Assembly (NCBI GenBank): GCA_001797815.1
Contig: MGQK01000078.1
Location: 2,213 to 11,098 of the forward strand
Source of the DNA: Deltaproteobacteria bacterium RBG_13_61_14
GTDB lineage: Bacteria > RBG-13-61-14
Length of the DNA stretch: 8,886 nt
Direction: 5' to 3'
Shown here: positions 2,224 through 8,668 of the stretch, in pieces
How positions within the stretch are numbered: the stretch's first letter is position 1
Layout of the letters: every line of letters starts with the position of its first letter
Translations under genes and position numbers: made by a program
The notes under the pieces: generated by a model
What the model was told of the DNA's origin: nothing
What the model saw: only the letters and a program-made list of their open reading frames with translations
Database searches by the model: none

Positions 2224-2251
2224 TGGGGTCAGAGCTTCACTTTACACTTAA
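2222..2251 (+). repeat. 30-bp islet repeat, copy 1
   Basis: This is the left terminal repeat of the RAYT element. It begins ATTGGGGTCAGAGCTTCAC and ends TTTACACTTAA. On the minus strand it encodes the transposase tail L-S-V-K-stop, and its outer A-T bases form part of the glycosyltransferase start codon. Confidence 0.9.
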
Positions 2252-3190
2252 TGCTTCCGTGCGTTTCTGCAACCCCGGCTCCCGGCCCAGTCGCTCCTTG
2301 AATCTTCTCGTCCCCATCGAAACCGCCGCCGCCTTCGCCCCCATCACCCTCCCCACCTCCGTCGCCCCCAGCCCGCAATGCTCAACCAAATGATAATACG
2401 CCGCCAGCCGCGGCACAAAATTCCGCCGCCGCCGCATCATCTCCTCTCGTTTCACCCCAAACACTTCCGCCACCCGGCCGACCTCTGCCTCAACCTTCAC
2501 CGCCTCTCGCTTAACTTGCACAAAAGCCGGCACTGCTTCCCACCTACCCGCTGGCCCATACTTCTTCATCAACTCCTCCACCACCGCACCCGGGCCTAAT
2601 ACCACCGCGCTCCGGATTTCTTCCCAAACCTTCCCCCGCTTCCCGGCCAATGCCAGGCATTCTTTCCGGTACCGCCGCCTCTGCCCCGCCTCGCTCTGGC
2701 CATACTGCGCCAAAATCTCCCCCGGCTTGAGCCACCCAAACCGCGAACGCCCCCGCGTGTAATCCCGAAAACTCGACCATTCATATTCCGCCGGGTCCGC
2801 CACCATCCCCGCCCGCACCGGATTCAGGTGCAAATACATGGACAGGTTCAGCCAGTGCCCCTCGTCCACCACCAGTACCGCCTTAAACCGCCCCTGCAAC
2901 AAGTGCCCGCCCCGGTGGTGTCTCCCAAAAAATCGCCGGGTGTAAGTGCCGATCAGCCACTGCATGGCCCGGCTCAGGTTGGCCCGGGGCGTGCGCAGAA
3001 AGAGGTGGAAGTGGTTGCTCATCAGGCAGAAGGCGAAAAGCTGAAGATCAAAGCGCGAGCTGGCCGTGGCAAGGGTGTCGAGAAAAAGGTGTTTGTCGGC
3101 TTCGTCCAGAAAGATGTCCTGGCGGTTATTGCCCCGCGAGGTTACGTGGTAAATAGCGTCGGGAAATTGGATGCGCCAGGGTCGGGCCAT
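2237..3190 (-). CDS. REP-associated tyrosine transposase (RAYT, Y1/HUH family)
   Basis: This 317-residue protein is a single-strand DNA transposase that nicks through a 5'-phosphotyrosine. The N-terminus MARPWRIQFPDAIYHVTSRG is the typical RAYT opening. The metal-binding HUH motif is H60-F61-H62 in LMSNHFHLF. The likely nucleophile is Tyr119 in SMYLHLNPVRAGMV. Residues about 230-305 form a C-terminal domain resembling the DnaA-type helix-turn-helix (VAEVFGVKREEM, then LAAYYHLVEHCGL) found in many long RAYTs. Catalytic residues look intact, so it may be active. The final L-S-V-K-stop is encoded by the flanking 30-bp repeat. A good promoter just upstream would start transcription at or next to the ATG, suggesting a leaderless message. 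No Shine-Dalgarno site is visible. Confidence 0.93.
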   Translation of the reverse strand: MARPWRIQFPDAIYHVTSRGNNRQDIFLDEADKHLFLDTLATASSRFDLQLFAFCLMSNHFHLFLRTPRANLSRAMQWLIGTYTRRFFGRHHRGGHLLQGRFKAVLVVDEGHWLNLSMYLHLNPVRAGMVADPAEYEWSSFRDYTRGRSRFGWLKPGEILAQYGQSEAGQRRRYRKECLALAGKRGKVWEEIRSAVVLGPGAVVEELMKKYGPAGRWEAVPAFVQVKREAVKVEAEVGRVAEVFGVKREEMMRRRRNFVPRLAAYYHLVEHCGLGATEVGRVMGAKAAAVSMGTRRFKERLGREPGLQKRTEALSVK

Positions 3191-3258: not shown

Positions 3259-3407
3259 CTCCCAATCTCGTTGTAAGAGTAGACATAGACCGGGTTGACC
3301 GGAGTTGCTCCCGTGCAATCCGAGCCGGAGGTTAGGCCGGTATCGCAGTAAGCCAGAACCTGCCCGCTGTTATCGTGCTTGAAACTCATGGTCATTTCAT
3401 TGCTCAA
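3259..3407 (-). pseudogene. Short YD/Rhs-like coding remnant
   Basis: Between repeat copies 2 and 3 a minus-strand frame reads SFKHDNSGQVLAYCDTGL and ends its non-repeat part with VYVYSYNEIGRLG. That ending resembles the YD-repeat signature (Y-x-Y-D/N-x-x-G-R-L) of Rhs and related wall or toxin-delivery proteins. It is cut off on one side by a stop codon at 3408-3410 and on the other by repeat copy 2, where it runs on for about ten residues. With under 50 residues and no clean ATG (only TTG at 3407), it looks like a fragment carried or left by element movement, not a working gene. The family link rests on one motif. Confidence 0.3.
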
Positions 3408-3423
3408 TTAAAAACCTTCCTTG

Positions 3424-3453
3424 TTAAGTGTAAAGTGAAGCTCTTATCCCGAT
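3424..3453 (-). repeat. 30-bp islet repeat, copy 3 (diverged)
   Basis: It matches the family at 27 of 30 positions. The differences lie in the outer end, which reads CTTATCCCGAT where the others have CTGACCCCAAT. It has the same orientation as copy 2 and no adjacent inverted partner, so it looks like an old orphan end. Confidence 0.85.
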
Positions 3454-3484
3454 CTTTTATATATTATAGACAACTTTAATATAG

Positions 3485-3862
3485 CTATTTTCTAATATTT
3501 GTCCTCTTTAACAATTTTAATATAATGGGAATCCCTAACATAGTTATAATAAAAGAAATTATCACTGCAAATGCGACGATATATTGAAGATATTTAGTAT
3601 TTTTCAAAAGATATATTATAAAATACCATAATAAAGGTATAAATATAGCTGCTATAATCCATAAAATAAAGCTCGCTGGTAAATTTATTATCATATTATA
3701 CAAATATTTTCTGTAAAATATCATTGCGATTACAAACAGAATAGCAAAGAAAATCATTATATATTTTTCATAGTTGGGCTTATAAAAAATAATAATAGTT
3801 AATAATATAATTATAATAATTGGTATCCTAGGAAACATATTCTTGTTCATCTTGATCTTCAT
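3485..3862 (-). CDS. Hypothetical four-helix membrane protein, AT-rich
   Basis: I do not recognise this 125-residue protein. It starts MKIKMNKNMFPRIPIIIIIL and has four probable membrane helices at about residues 13-27, 34-50, 64-86 and 92-117. Loops are short and lysine-rich, and the tail is basic (LLKRTNIRK). It has no signal-peptide cleavage site, catalytic motif or cysteine pattern. An in-frame ATG at 3880 would add six residues, but the Shine-Dalgarno AGGAGGAG lies between the two ATGs, so the start at 3862 is preferred. Codon use (many ATA, TTA, AAA) is unlike any neighbour and fits a low-GC donor such as a Firmicute. Small immunity, bacteriocin-protection or toxin-like membrane proteins look similar, but nothing here shows such a role. 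A TATAAT at 3901-3906 (minus strand) could be a -10 box; no good -35 box accompanies it. Confidence 0.65.
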   Translation of the reverse strand: MKIKMNKNMFPRIPIIIIILLTIIIFYKPNYEKYIMIFFAILFVIAMIFYRKYLYNMIINLPASFILWIIAAIFIPLLWYFIIYLLKNTKYLQYIVAFAVIISFIITMLGIPIILKLLKRTNIRK

Positions 3863-3867
3863 TATTA

Positions 3868-3875
3868 CTCCTCCT
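3868..3875 (-). promoter_or_regulatory. Shine-Dalgarno site deciding the start of the membrane protein
   Basis: AGGAGGAG on the minus strand ends 5 nt before the ATG at 3862. It overlaps codons 2-5 of the longer frame that begins at 3880. This is close to the ideal anti-16S match and argues that the short start is used and that this is a real gene. Confidence 0.75.
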
Positions 3876-3916
3876 CTCATTAATGCCTATTTAATTGATG
3901 ATTATATTATTAGAGC

Positions 3917-3948
3917 ATAGGGGTCACTTCTGAAGTCGCTTGTCAAGC
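3917..3948 (+). repeat. Degenerate repeat end followed by tandem palindromes
   Basis: ATAGGGGTCA (3917-3926) matches the outer ten bases of the 30-bp repeat at nine positions and then diverges. It overlaps a palindrome ACTTC-T-GAAGT (3926-3936), followed after 1 nt by GCTTG-T-CAAGC (3938-3948). It may be a decayed end, or the end of a related element family. The 73 bp that follow, up to the MITE-like element, show only a 6-bp-stem hairpin at 3979-3996 (GCGGCT/AGCCGC). Confidence 0.4.
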
Positions 3949-4021
3949 CCCCCGATGTAATTTTTAGCAACTTTCTTCGCGGCTTATCCGAGCCGCCGCC
4001 GCGACCCTCCCAGACCCAGGC

Positions 4022-4287: not shown

Positions 4288-4317
4288 TTAAGTGTAAAGT
4301 GAAGCTCTGACCCCAAT
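4288..4317 (-). repeat. 30-bp islet repeat, copy 5
   Basis: Right terminal repeat of the MITE-like element; identical to the reverse complement of copy 1 over 30 bases. Read toward carB's end it encodes I-G-V-R-A-S-L-Y-T-stop, so the last nine codons and the TAA of carB lie in the repeat. Confidence 0.92.
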
Positions 4318-7300
4318 GTCGCGATGGTATTCCTGGAGCGACTTCACCTGCATCTGGGGCTGCCGGATCAGGCTCTCGATGCCGTTGACCGAAGCCTCGG
4401 CGCCGGCCAGGGTGGTGATCAGGGGCACGCCGTGGAGGATGGCGTGGCTGCGGATCTTGGTCTCGTCCTCCTTGGTGGCCTTGCCCGCGGGCGTATTGAT
4501 GATCAAATCCACCTTGTCGTTCTTGATGTAATCCAAAATGTTGGGCCGGCCCTCGTGGATCTTGGGCAAAACCTCGACCTCGATCCCGTTCCGGACCAGG
4601 GCCTCGGCGGTCCCGGAGGTGGCGATGATCTGGAAGCCCAGGTCCTGGAGCTTCTTGGCCACGAACACCAAGTGGCGCTTGTCCTGGTTCTTCACGCTGA
4701 TGAAGACGCTGCCTTGGGTGGGGAGCTTCTGCCCGGCCGCGATCTGGCTCTTGGCGTAAGCCATGCCGAAGGTGGTGTCAATTCCCATCACCTCGCCGGT
4801 GGACTTCATCTCCGGGCCGAGGATGGCGTCGGCGCCCGGGAACCGGATAAAGGGAAAGACCGATTCCTTGACCGCTACGTAGGGGATCGGCTTCTCTTGG
4901 GTAAAGCCCAGCTCGGGCAAGGTCTGGCCCAGCATGATCTTGGTGGCCAGCTTGGCCAGCGGCACCCCGATAGCCTTGGAAATGAAAGGCACCGTGCGGC
5001 TGGCCCGGGGGTTCACCTCCAGGATATAGACCACATTGTTCTTGACCGCATATTGAATATTGAGCAGCCCTTTGACCTTGAGCTCCTTGGCCAGGGCCGC
5101 GGTGTTGAGCCGGATCTGCTCCAGGATCTCCGCGCCCAGGGTGTAAGTAGGCAGGACCATGGCGCTGTCGCCCGAATGAATTCCCGCTTCCTCGATGTGC
5201 TCCATGATCCCGCCGATCACGCAGCGCTCGCCGTCGGCAATGGCATCCACGTCCACCTCGATCGCGTCCTCCAGGAACTTGTCAATCAAGATCGGATGGT
5301 CCGGCGAGACCTGGATGGCCTTTTCCATGTAACCGGCCAGGTCATGGTCATCATAAACAATCTCCATGGCCCGGCCGCCCAGCACGTAGGACGGCCTCAC
5401 CACCACCGGGTAGCCGATGACCCCGGCCACCCGCCGGGCCTGCTCGAAGGAGGAGGCGGTCCCGTTCTCGGGCTGGACGAGCTTGAGCTTTTTCACCAGT
5501 TGCTGGAAGCGCTTGCGGTCTTCGGCCCGGTCAATCGAGTCGGGCGAAGTGCCCAGGATCTTGACCCCGGCCCGGTGCAGGGGCACGGAGAGGTTCAAGG
5601 GAGTCTGGCCGCCGAACTGGACGATGAGGCCGATCGGCTTTTCCAGCTCCACGATGTTGAGCACGTCCTCGAAGGTGAGCGGCTCGAAATACAGCTTGTC
5701 CGAGGTGTCGTAGTCGGTGGAAACGGTCTCCGGGTTGCAGTTGATCATGATGCTCTCCATGCCTTCTTCCCGGAGCGCGTAGGAAGCGTGGCAGCAGCAG
5801 TAATCAAACTCGATTCCCTGTCCGATCCGGTTGGGGCCGCCGCCCAGGATCACCACTTTCTTGCGGCCGGAGGGAACGCTCTCGTTCTCGGTCTCGTAAG
5901 TGGAGTAATAGTAAGGCCGCTCCGCCCGGAACTCGCCGGCGCAGGTGTCCACCAGCTTGTAAACCGCCTGGATCCCGTGCCGCTTCCGATAGTCGCGGAC
6001 CTTGGCCTCGGTCGAGTTGAGCAGATGCGCGAGCTGCACGTCGGAAAAGCCGTTGGCCTTGGCCGTCTTCAACAGGTCGGCCGGCAGCTTGATCGCGCCG
6101 GTCGGCCGGGCGTTCCGGTATTTCCCGATCTTGGCTTCCAGCTCGGTAAGCTCCTTCATGTTGTCGAGAAACCACCGGTCTATCTTGGAGAGATCGTAAA
6201 GCTCGTCCACGCTCATCCCCAGCTTCAAGCCATAGCGGAGATAAAACAGCCGGTCGTCGTTGGGCACCCGGATCTTTTGCTGGATTTCCCGGTGAAGCGC
6301 CGGCGCGGGCTTCTTCAGCTCCGCGTCCTTGACCCGGTCCTTGCCGTCGGCCCCGAACCCGAAGCGGCCGGTCTCAATGGACCGGATGCCCTTCTGCAGC
6401 GCCTCCTTGAAGTTGCGGCCGATGGACATGGCCTCGCCCACCGCCTTCATCGAGGTGTTGAGCACCCGCTCGGCCTGGGGGAATTTCTCAAAGGTGAAGC
6501 GGCAGATCTTGAACACGCAATAGTCCACGGTCGGCTCGAAAAAGGCGGTGGTGCGGCCGGTGACCTGGTTCAGAATCTCGGGCAGGGTCAGGCCCACGGC
6601 CAGCTTGGTGGCGACCCGGGCGATGGGGAAGCCGGTGGCCTTGGAGGCCAGGGCCGAGCTGCGGGAGAGGCGGGGATTGACCTCGATGATCACGATCTGG
6701 CCGTTGTCCGGGTTTTGCGCAAACTGGATGTTGGCGCCGCCGCCGGTGACCCCCACCTTGCGGATGATCTTCTTGGAGAGGTTCACGAACTGGAGGTATT
6801 CCTCCGCGGTCAGGCTCTGGGAAGGCGCGACCACGATCGAGTCCCCGGTATGCACGCCCATCGGGTCCACGTTCTCCATGGAGGTGATCATGATCACGTT
6901 GTCCACGCAGTCGCGGACCACCTCGAATTCGATCTCCTTCCAGCCCAGCACCGATTGCTCGACCAGCACCTGGTGCACCGGGCTGATCTCCAGGGCGCTC
7001 GCGAGCGCCTGCTCCAGCTCTTCCTTGTTGTAAGCGGTGGCCCCGCCGGCGCCGCCCAGGCAATAGGCGGGCCGCAGGATCAAGGGGAACCCGATGTCCA
7101 GACCGATCTTCATGCCCTCTTCCACGCCGGTGGCAATCCCGCTCTTCGGAGTCTTGACTCCGATCTCGTGCATCGCCTGCTTGAACAGGTCGCGGTCCTC
7201 CGCCCGGGAGATGGCGTCCACGCTGGCGCCGATGCTTTCCACCCCGTAGCGGCTGAGAATCCCTTCCTTCATCAGGAAGAAGGCCAGGTTGAGCCCGGTC

Positions 7301-7578
7301 TGGCCGCCCAGCGTCGGCAGGATCGCGTCCGGCCGCTCCTGCTTGATGATCTCGGTCACCGCCTCGACCGTGAGCGGCTCGATGTAAGTGACGTCGGCCA
7401 GACCCGGGTCGGTCATGATGGTGGCCGGGTTGCTGTTGACCAGGATGGTGAAGTATCCCTCTTCCCGGAGCGCCTTGCAGGCCTGCGAGCCGGAATAGTC
7501 GAACTCGCAGGCCTGGCCGATCACAATCGGACCGGACCCGATCATCAGGATCTTCTTCAAGTCCGCGCGCTTGGGCAT
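4288..7578 (-). CDS. carB: Carbamoyl-phosphate synthase large subunit
   Basis: CarB makes carbamoyl phosphate for pyrimidine and arginine synthesis from bicarbonate, two ATP and ammonia. The 1,096 residues show the full plan. An N-terminal ATP-grasp unit spans about 1-405, with EFDYSGSQ at 25-32, RPAY at 169-172, ENVDPMGVHTGDS at 235-247, and E299 and N301 in IIEVNPRLSRSS. The oligomerisation domain covers about 406-570. A second ATP-grasp unit (about 571-945) has FDYCCCHASYALREEG, VVRPSYVLGGRAM at 726-738 and ILEVNPRASRT at 852-862. The C-terminal MGS-like allosteric domain follows (about 950-1085, TSGTAEALVRNG at 987-998). Active-site residues look intact. The start is supported by AAGGAG 5 nt upstream, inside the end of carA. 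Relative to E. coli, which as I recall ends VQEMHAQIK, the tail LQEYHRDI continues with GVRASLYT and a stop, all encoded by repeat copy 5. Confidence 0.98.
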   Translation of the reverse strand: MPKRADLKKILMIGSGPIVIGQACEFDYSGSQACKALREEGYFTILVNSNPATIMTDPGLADVTYIEPLTVEAVTEIIKQERPDAILPTLGGQTGLNLAFFLMKEGILSRYGVESIGASVDAISRAEDRDLFKQAMHEIGVKTPKSGIATGVEEGMKIGLDIGFPLILRPAYCLGGAGGATAYNKEELEQALASALEISPVHQVLVEQSVLGWKEIEFEVVRDCVDNVIMITSMENVDPMGVHTGDSIVVAPSQSLTAEEYLQFVNLSKKIIRKVGVTGGGANIQFAQNPDNGQIVIIEVNPRLSRSSALASKATGFPIARVATKLAVGLTLPEILNQVTGRTTAFFEPTVDYCVFKICRFTFEKFPQAERVLNTSMKAVGEAMSIGRNFKEALQKGIRSIETGRFGFGADGKDRVKDAELKKPAPALHREIQQKIRVPNDDRLFYLRYGLKLGMSVDELYDLSKIDRWFLDNMKELTELEAKIGKYRNARPTGAIKLPADLLKTAKANGFSDVQLAHLLNSTEAKVRDYRKRHGIQAVYKLVDTCAGEFRAERPYYYSTYETENESVPSGRKKVVILGGGPNRIGQGIEFDYCCCHASYALREEGMESIMINCNPETVSTDYDTSDKLYFEPLTFEDVLNIVELEKPIGLIVQFGGQTPLNLSVPLHRAGVKILGTSPDSIDRAEDRKRFQQLVKKLKLVQPENGTASSFEQARRVAGVIGYPVVVRPSYVLGGRAMEIVYDDHDLAGYMEKAIQVSPDHPILIDKFLEDAIEVDVDAIADGERCVIGGIMEHIEEAGIHSGDSAMVLPTYTLGAEILEQIRLNTAALAKELKVKGLLNIQYAVKNNVVYILEVNPRASRTVPFISKAIGVPLAKLATKIMLGQTLPELGFTQEKPIPYVAVKESVFPFIRFPGADAILGPEMKSTGEVMGIDTTFGMAYAKSQIAAGQKLPTQGSVFISVKNQDKRHLVFVAKKLQDLGFQIIATSGTAEALVRNGIEVEVLPKIHEGRPNILDYIKNDKVDLIINTPAGKATKEDETKIRSHAILHGVPLITTLAGAEASVNGIESLIRQPQMQVKSLQEYHRDIGVRASLYT

Positions 7579-7579
7579 G

Positions 7580-8668
7580 CTAACTCCTTTTCTCCGGCGC
7601 GATCATCCCCGTGAACTTGCTCCACACCGGATGGATTTCATCAAAGCCGGGACTCGACGGATAATACTGGGTGGAAATAAACCGGAGCGCTTCGTTCTCC
7701 ATTTCCTCGATGGTCGCGTCGTTCACGTTTTGCAGGGTGACGGCGACCTCGTTTCGCGCTTTGATCGAATCGGCGTCCACCACCCAGGAATGATTCTGCA
7801 CCGTGATCTCGCCTTTGAAAGAAGCGGGGGAGCGGACCGGGTAGTTGACGCCGTGATGGCCGACCTTGAGGCGCTGGAGCCGGCCGCCGAGCGCCAGGGC
7901 GATGATCTGGTGGCCGGTGGAAATCCCGAACAAGGGGATTCGGCCGAGCAACGCCTTGACCGTGGGCACAATCTCGGGTAGGGAAGCATCATTTTCCGGC
8001 CCGTTGGAGATGACCAGCCCGTCCAGACCCGCCTCCAAAATCTTCTCGGCGCTGGTGCGAAAAGGGAACAACCAGATTTCCCGAGCCAGGTGTTTGAGCT
8101 GCTGGACCAGGCTGTGGGTCACGCCCAGGTCGAGGACGCCGAGCCTGGGACCCTTCCCCGGTCCTTTGATCTTGGTGATGCGGCTTACGGAGATCTCCCG
8201 GATCCAATCCTGGTCGGCGTGCTCCTTATGGGCTTTCAGCTTTTTCAGAAGAGCGGCCGGATTCGACGGCTTGGTCGCTACAATCCCCCACATCTCGCCC
8301 TGGTCGCGGATTTTCACGGCCAGGGTGCGCGTGTCAATCCCGCTGATCGCGGTCACCTGCTGCTCGGCCAGGAAGTGATCGAAGGGATCTTCGGCCTGCC
8401 AGTTGGAGCAGATCCGCGTCTTCTCCTTGATCACCAAAGCCGCCAGCCAAGAGCGGCGGGACTCGTTGAACTTTCCCGCCACCCCGTAATTCCCGATCAA
8501 GGGATAGGTGAGCACCAGGATCTTGCCGGCGTTGGCCGGGTCGGTCATCAGCTCCTGATAGCCGACCACCGCCGTGTTCAAGACCACCTCGCCCATGCGT
8601 TCGCCGGCCACGCCGACGGAAAGGCCCGCGAACGCTTGCCCGTCTTCCAGAACCAGGATTCCCTTCAT
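7580..8668 (-). CDS. carA: Carbamoyl-phosphate synthase small subunit, glutaminase-inactive
   Basis: CarA normally hydrolyses glutamine and passes ammonia through a tunnel to CarB. The 362 residues cover both family domains: an N-terminal CarA domain (1-150; VVLNTAVVGYQELMTDP at 28-44, LTYPLIGNYG at 53-62, GIDTR at 110-114) and a class I amidotransferase domain (about 174-362). Catalytic residues are missing. The nucleophile-elbow motif GICLGHQ reads GISTGHQ (Ser250, codon 7919-7921). The QYHPE motif with the catalytic His and Glu reads QYYPS (Tyr336, Ser338). Pocket motifs are also altered: SNGPGDP is SNGPEND, QNHGF is QNHSW, and DPS (Ser47 in E. coli) is DPA. The fold motifs (GHQ, GHHG, SPG) remain and the frame is unbroken, so it looks like a maintained protein. 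The start at 8668 is chosen because MKGILVLEDGQAF aligns with the family and AGGAG lies 6 nt upstream; the ATG at 8758 would add 30 unsupported residues. Confidence 0.95.
   Translation of the reverse strand: MKGILVLEDGQAFAGLSVGVAGERMGEVVLNTAVVGYQELMTDPANAGKILVLTYPLIGNYGVAGKFNESRRSWLAALVIKEKTRICSNWQAEDPFDHFLAEQQVTAISGIDTRTLAVKIRDQGEMWGIVATKPSNPAALLKKLKAHKEHADQDWIREISVSRITKIKGPGKGPRLGVLDLGVTHSLVQQLKHLAREIWLFPFRTSAEKILEAGLDGLVISNGPENDASLPEIVPTVKALLGRIPLFGISTGHQIIALALGGRLQRLKVGHHGVNYPVRSPASFKGEITVQNHSWVVDADSIKARNEVAVTLQNVNDATIEEMENEALRFISTQYYPSSPGFDEIHPVWSKFTGMIAPEKRS

Follow-up and report, generated by a model that had tools for sequence, protein, structure and literature searches.

The window analysed here, meaning the whole stretch of 8,886 nucleotides, carries a gene pair, designated carA'-carB', which would encode a second carbamoyl phosphate synthetase (CPS) fed by free ammonia, CarA' being its non-catalytic structural or regulatory subunit; a probability of about 0.7 is assigned to this reading. 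The Cys-His-Glu triad of the glutaminase is absent from CarA', so that glutamine should not be hydrolysed. Since nine or more other bacterial genomes conserve such a triad-less subunit, free ammonia is probably the nitrogen source of the enzyme. The loss of the triad, taken together with the use of ammonia by E. coli CarB, with CPS1 and with the PurF mutants altered at Cys1, is the basis on which the pair is considered as an ammonia-fed CPS.

According to the proposed mechanism, CarB' would perform bicarbonate phosphorylation, carbamate formation and carbamate phosphorylation. CarA' would keep the CarA fold and probably still bind CarB', without hydrolysing glutamine, and it most likely shapes the entry of ammonia, a role comparable to that of the glutaminase-like domain, itself inactive, in human CPS1. 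Under abundant ammonium, the pair may give ammonia an alternative route to pyrimidines or arginine. Free ammonia serves the E. coli CPS as a substrate only when very concentrated (PMC6245113), so that CarB' would need a high-ammonium niche or a better Km. The GAT half of CarA' could also bind another ligand, or CarA' could act as a regulator only, and CarB' could receive its ammonia from a different glutaminase, of which the cell's own canonical CarA is one candidate.

A small subunit without the glutaminase triad

The carA' gene (7580-8668, minus strand), a CPS small-subunit paralogue of 362 aa, is defined by its open reading frame, its Pfam matches and its AlphaFold model. The Pfam domains CPSase_sm_chain (PF00988) and GATase (PF00117) span the whole length of the protein, and its TIGR01368 score of 321 bits exceeds the cut-off of 307. 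An AlphaFold2 model, computed as a single chain from 14 sequences (pLDDT 82.9, pTM 0.87), has the E. coli CarA 1cs0 as its top PDB match (TM 0.91), followed by human CPS1 (TM 0.84-0.85). By fold as well as by sequence family, CarA' is therefore a two-domain CarA. The E. coli CarA structures include 1jdb, 1cs0 and 1c30, the last being the C269S mutant.

The triad that characterizes a glutamine-hydrolysing CarA is replaced by Ser, Tyr and a deletion, the counterparts of GICLGHQ and GHPEASPGPHD in E. coli being GISTGHQ and QYYPSSPGFDE. The preliminary description had correctly placed a Ser at the position of the catalytic Cys269 (Ser250, codon TCC, 7919-7921, minus strand; Ser in nine and Ala in one of the ten members of the clade described below) and a Tyr at that of the catalytic His353 (Tyr336, codon TAT, 7661-7663, minus strand). 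For Glu355 it had hesitated between a replacement by Ser and a one-residue gap; the alignment shows the gap, with Glu355 deleted at Pro337-Ser338 (7655-7660, minus strand; QYYP-SSPGFDE). The same one-residue deletion is found throughout the window's group of eight, which read QYYP-xSPGFDE or similar vs QYHPEASPGPHD.

The comparison with E. coli CarA and its homologues, which had been suggested as a check, confirmed the loss of the triad and revealed losses beyond those already listed. Relative to 58 CarAs and to the clade alignment, the CarA' of the window carries S47A, K202T, G243E, D244N, P245D, L270T, G313S and F314W, of which S47A, G243E, L270T and G313S concern the glutamine site; G241, Q273, N311 and H312 are retained. 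The residue at the Gly243 position of the glutamine site is Glu225 (codon GAA, 7994-7996, minus strand), a Glu in all ten clade members, and the Leu270 position is occupied by Thr251 (codon ACC, 7916-7918, minus strand), equivalent to Thr295 of human CPS1 (PMC4655335). In the window sequence alone, the losses cluster in the glutamine site, where they affect 5 of 8 columns vs 8 of the 49 others (Fisher p = 0.011). No CarA among the 58 compared has a GAT half as diverged as that of CarA'; the N-terminal half scores low, yet within their range. A G293V change had been considered as a block of the tunnel and was dropped as evidence, canonical CarAs having Ala, Ile, Leu or Gln at this position too.

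An intact large subunit and a canonical pair elsewhere

The carB' gene (4288-7578, minus strand; 1096 aa) encodes a CPS large-subunit paralogue in which the checked active-site residues of both ATP-grasp halves are kept. Its ATG lies one base after the carA' stop, and an AGGAG (7584-7588, minus strand), its likely ribosome-binding site, is located inside the end of carA'. The residues retained by both the window and the clade are R129, R169, E215, H243, Q285, E299, N301 and R303 in the first half and R675, R715, E761, H788, Q829, E841, N843 and R845 in the second, which correspond to active-site residues of the E. coli CPS. The earlier statement that carA is coupled to an intact carB thus holds for the one-base spacing as well as for the catalytic residues checked, and the operon partner of CarA' is a carB with intact synthetase sites. 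CarB' likewise keeps its ornithine and UMP/IMP site residues, which give no pointer to a special regulation. One change concerns the tunnel gate, as described in PMC4655335: Thr replaces Cys232 in the window and seven of its nine relatives, the Cys being present in 29 of 30 canonical CarBs. Between carB' and an IS200-type transposase gene (2237-3190) lies an AT-rich island (3400-4000) with a G+C of 0.20-0.37 vs about 0.60 for the contig, which contains an ORF of 131 aa (3485-3880, minus strand), membrane-like and devoid of a Pfam match.

The window belongs to contig 78 of a 4.74 Mb assembly of 132 contigs (95% complete, 0.5% contamination). A canonical carA, with GICLGHQ and QYHPE, is found on contig 43 in a pyrR-pyrB-pyrC-carA-...-carB-greA neighborhood; this second pair was absent from the preliminary description. 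The two pairs of the genome share 57% identity for CarB and 35% for CarA. Because a canonical glutaminase-type carA-carB is present elsewhere in the genome, the window pair is a paralogue located outside the pyrimidine operon and not the sole CPS of the cell. In six loci (L221, L222, L223, L183, L184 and L202, from G252, G115, G068, G312, G176 and G040), only an N-terminal carB half, of about 550-580 aa, comes after the canonical carA. L202 reaches the end of its locus, and no C-terminal carB half was seen within these six retrieved loci.

A conserved clade of triad-less CarAs

Relatives were sought in the phylum of G029 and then by searching 386 diverse genomes with a profile. The phylum search provided two orthologues, in G312 and G176, each genome also having a canonical carA; their CarA motifs are GISSGNL together with QYVP and QYIP. 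A profile built from these two sequences and that of the window detected seven more (G252, G115, G339, G266, G209, G068 and G337) with scores of 461-504 bits vs at most 412 for canonical CarAs. Besides that of the window, nine orthologous pairs were obtained in seven other families, which brings the clade to ten genomes and eight families by their assigned labels, with identities to the window of 42-62% for CarA and 66-81% for CarB. In all ten genomes carA' and carB' adjoin, with a spacing of -22 to +157 bp. G209 and G339, of genus g201, have the triad-less CarA as the only CarA found.

Every triad position is lost in all ten members, as the preliminary description had proposed to verify: Cys269 is replaced by Ser (nine) or Ala (one), His353 by Tyr, Val or Ile, and Glu355 by a deletion, Val or Gly. 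The pocket is altered in a consistent manner, with Glu at position 243 in ten of ten and Ser at position 313 in nine of ten. A reference set of 57 canonical CarAs has 58 columns with a conservation of 95% or more; all ten members retain 38 of these and lack eight others, among which is every triad residue. Judged from the sequences, the loss of the triad is more than chance.

Simple motif searches were less productive. Scanning the 386 genomes for F-G-I-x-x-G-H-Q left the window as the sole CarA-type non-Cys exception among the about 150 matches listed; fifteen non-Cys matches were checked as CarA candidates and none was a CarA. The pattern P-x-F-G-I-S-T-G-H-Q gave a single match in GTDB genomes, in Devosia, where the Cys is present (GICTGHQ); this pattern is too strict because the relatives read LGIS and GHE or GNL. 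Viral contigs searched with the plain CarA' protein and with a designed alignment gave no matches.

Selection and phylogeny

Two pairs of genomes are close enough for dN/dS to be measured. For CarA' the ratio is 0.135 (G209/G339) and 0.244 (G252/G115), for CarB' 0.11 and 0.16 respectively, and for canonical CarA 0.006-0.08. The selection on CarA' is relaxed vs canonical CarA, yet clearly purifying, which answers the dN/dS check proposed earlier. The former claim that CarA' no longer hydrolyses glutamine is, as a prediction, strongly supported by the loss of both triad and pocket, its conservation in ten genomes and this purifying selection.

The ten clade members are united in the CarB trees (95/89), as is the window's group of eight (100/100), and the CarA tree likewise unites the ten (SH-aLRT 99). 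In a tree computed without eukaryotic sequence, CarB' is placed within the bacterial CarBs. CarBs without an adjacent carA are found near the clade in the CarB tree; this larger grouping is weak (87/65) and was not relied on. These solo paralogues are L080/L082 (G001), L081, L064 (G002), L118 (G026), L119, L120 (G037) and L057/L137 (G040). That of G001 is in tandem with a canonical carB, and that of G040 directly follows a glutamate-dehydrogenase-like gene, named by sequence likeness only.

Associated PurF and GuaA paralogues

The gene following carB' in G209, G339, G252 and G115 encodes a PurF paralogue that starts with M-S-G, a Ser replacing the catalytic Cys1, and keeps an intact PRPP loop. 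In the triad-less-CarA genomes the PurF paralogues have Cys1 changed to Ser or Ala. The window genome carries a copy on contig 73 (62% identical, MSGLFG) along with an ordinary PurF. The divergent neighbor of carA' in the window genome is a GMP-synthase ATPase without a GATase domain (contig 78, about 11177-12139; PP-loop SGGVDSS), and a full GuaA is encoded as well. In G337, carA'-carB' is followed by a glutamate dehydrogenase gene.

The co-occurrence of these genes was evaluated in 69 genomes, with p-values that ignore relatedness, groups set after the first matches had been seen, and 54 'other' genomes only partly checked for solo CarBs. A GuaA without GATase domain is found in 5 of 10 triad-less-CarA genomes and, once the solo-CarB genomes are counted too, in 8 of 15, vs 0 of 54 others (p = 8e-7). 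For the PurF paralogue the corresponding figures are 6 of 10, 8 of 15 and 2 of 54 (p = 3e-5). Several clade genomes have GuaA and PurF paralogues absent or not found. In G209 and G339, neither a canonical PurF nor a canonical CarA was found; if a glutaminase-competent version of either is indeed missing, de novo purine and pyrimidine synthesis would start from free ammonia in these two genomes. It is tentatively suggested, at slightly less than even odds, that several bacterial lineages co-inherit an ammonia-converted nucleotide set, and that at least genus g201 would start both purines and pyrimidines from ammonia. The members of this set would be a CPS whose CarA has no triad (or a CarB on its own), a PurF in which Ser or Ala replaces Cys1, and a GMP-synthase ATPase deprived of its GATase. 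If the PurF and GuaA paralogues do share the set, they would constitute a testable ammonia-fed entry to nucleotide synthesis.

A PurF paralogue with the Cys1 to Ser change also exists in G239 (L259) and G089 (L260), both with a canonical CarA. DUF1846 (PF08903) genes were observed at L268:2051-3577, L261:6595-8124, L214:17545-19083 and L258:5000-6532, the last by sequence likeness; such a gene adjoins the GuaA paralogue in G001 and the PurF paralogue in G068, and lies downstream of carA'-carB'-purF' in G252 and G115. In C. difficile, a DUF1846 gene figures on a list of essential genes (PMC12548448).

Alternative explanations

CarA' might be a regulatory pseudoenzyme whose altered pocket (Glu225, Ser250, Ser294, Tyr336) binds a metabolite and gates CarB', or CarB' might be fed in trans by the canonical CarA. 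The Glu at position 243 in ten of ten and the Ser at position 313 in nine of ten, specific to the clade, suggest a pocket that is remodelled and not empty, and feeding in trans is conceivable in the several clade genomes that pair a canonical CarA with the N-terminal CarB half only. This alternative is nevertheless unlikely: human CPS1 retains its dead GAT domain without using glutamine, and feeding in trans is not general because G209 and G339 have no canonical CarA found. It appears quite improbable that the carbamoyl phosphate of carA'-carB' is destined for something besides nucleotides or arginine, such as a specialised metabolite or the maturation of hydrogenase. The window pair does lie outside the pyrimidine operon and beside unrelated genes, but the PurF- and GuaA-type neighbors and co-occurring genes point to nucleotide synthesis, and there was no sign of a biosynthetic cluster.

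A copy of the canonical CPS in decay, or without function, would account for a CarA' evolving faster than CarB', the mean identity gap between the two being 18 points in the clade vs 5 in canonical pairs, and for a CarA' dN/dS of 0.14-0.24 when canonical CarA reaches at most 0.08. It is nonetheless very improbable in view of the intact frames, the conserved operon pairing and a CarB' 77-81% identical to that of the window in six other families. The earlier opinion that this is not simple decay is confirmed by orthologous pairs with the same losses in ten genomes and by dN/dS values well below 1. As to an error of assembly or sequencing, or a foreign contig, the number of contigs (132) and an N gap upstream of carA' could raise such a suspicion; there is however no N within carA', the contamination is 0.5%, the G+C of the contig (0.60) matches that of the canonical locus (0.62), and the same feature in nine other genomes refutes it, leaving a negligible probability.

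Comparison with known systems

Human CPS1, which uses ammonia and not glutamine, has Ser294-Thr295 at the Cys269/Leu270 positions and keeps its inactive domain; in frog CPS1, introducing Leu in place of the residue equivalent to Thr295 restored the glutaminase (PMC4655335). Vertebrate CPS I (human CPS1, PDB 5dot/5dou) and CarA' thus share the Cys to Ser replacement, the following Thr and the retention of an inactive glutaminase-like domain, the synthetase sites being intact in both systems, and CarA' gives a sequence match of 1.6e-39 to human CPS1. However, CPS1 is one fused mitochondrial chain needing N-acetylglutamate and carA'-carB' are two separate bacterial genes; moreover CarA', unlike CPS1, also loses the His and the Glu. 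The resemblance is most likely convergent. With E. coli CarAB (CPS II) the window pair shares the fold, the two-subunit operon and the checked catalytic residues of CarB, but it lacks Cys269-His353-Glu355 and several residues of the glutamine site in CarA', and Cys232 in CarB'. Bacillus and Lactobacillus possess duplicate CPSs, arginine- and pyrimidine-specific, hence two pairs per genome as here. Both of these are glutamine-dependent, unlike the window genome, in which one pair is without a glutaminase. The loss of the nucleophile, natural or engineered, is also encountered in a different enzyme, PurF: Ala or Ser replaces Cys1 in E. coli mutants, which are still able to use ammonia (PMC3261824), and in the archaeal Mlab_0150.

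Vertebrates are already known to possess a CPS that depends on ammonia and carries a dead glutaminase domain. The conserved bacterial two-subunit form, accompanied by PurF and GuaA paralogues devoid of a functional glutaminase, appears to be new, as no description of a conserved bacterial triad-less two-subunit CPS clade was found in the open-access literature (open-licence papers). The preliminary description, which knew of no commonly described bacterial CarA of this kind, is upheld within this literature; the pattern itself is not unique to the organism. The pair would constitute a natural two-subunit model of how the urea-cycle CPS I could lose the use of glutamine and keep a dead domain. 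Annotation pipelines would label CarA' 'glutamine-hydrolyzing', the TIGR01368 cut-off being exceeded, and as a consequence nitrogen flow in such organisms may be modelled wrongly.

Independent loss of the triad in another phylum

Triad-less CarAs also occur in another phylum, where the three positions of the triad read Val, Met and Asp in G024, G437 and G387, and Ser, Leu and Glu in G413. In each of these four genomes it is the sole CarA found (E up to 1e-15), and dN/dS is 0.15-0.19 among the CarAs of G024, G437 and G387. A first tree had placed the CarAs of the window and G024 as sisters (99/94), a long-branch pairing that disappeared once proper relatives were added. Since G024 and its kin nest among the canonical CarAs of their own phylum in the CarA tree, the two triad losses are independent. 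A partial change was observed in the CarA of L073 (G017), in which His353 is replaced by Asn (QYNPE), with Cys269 and Glu355 kept.
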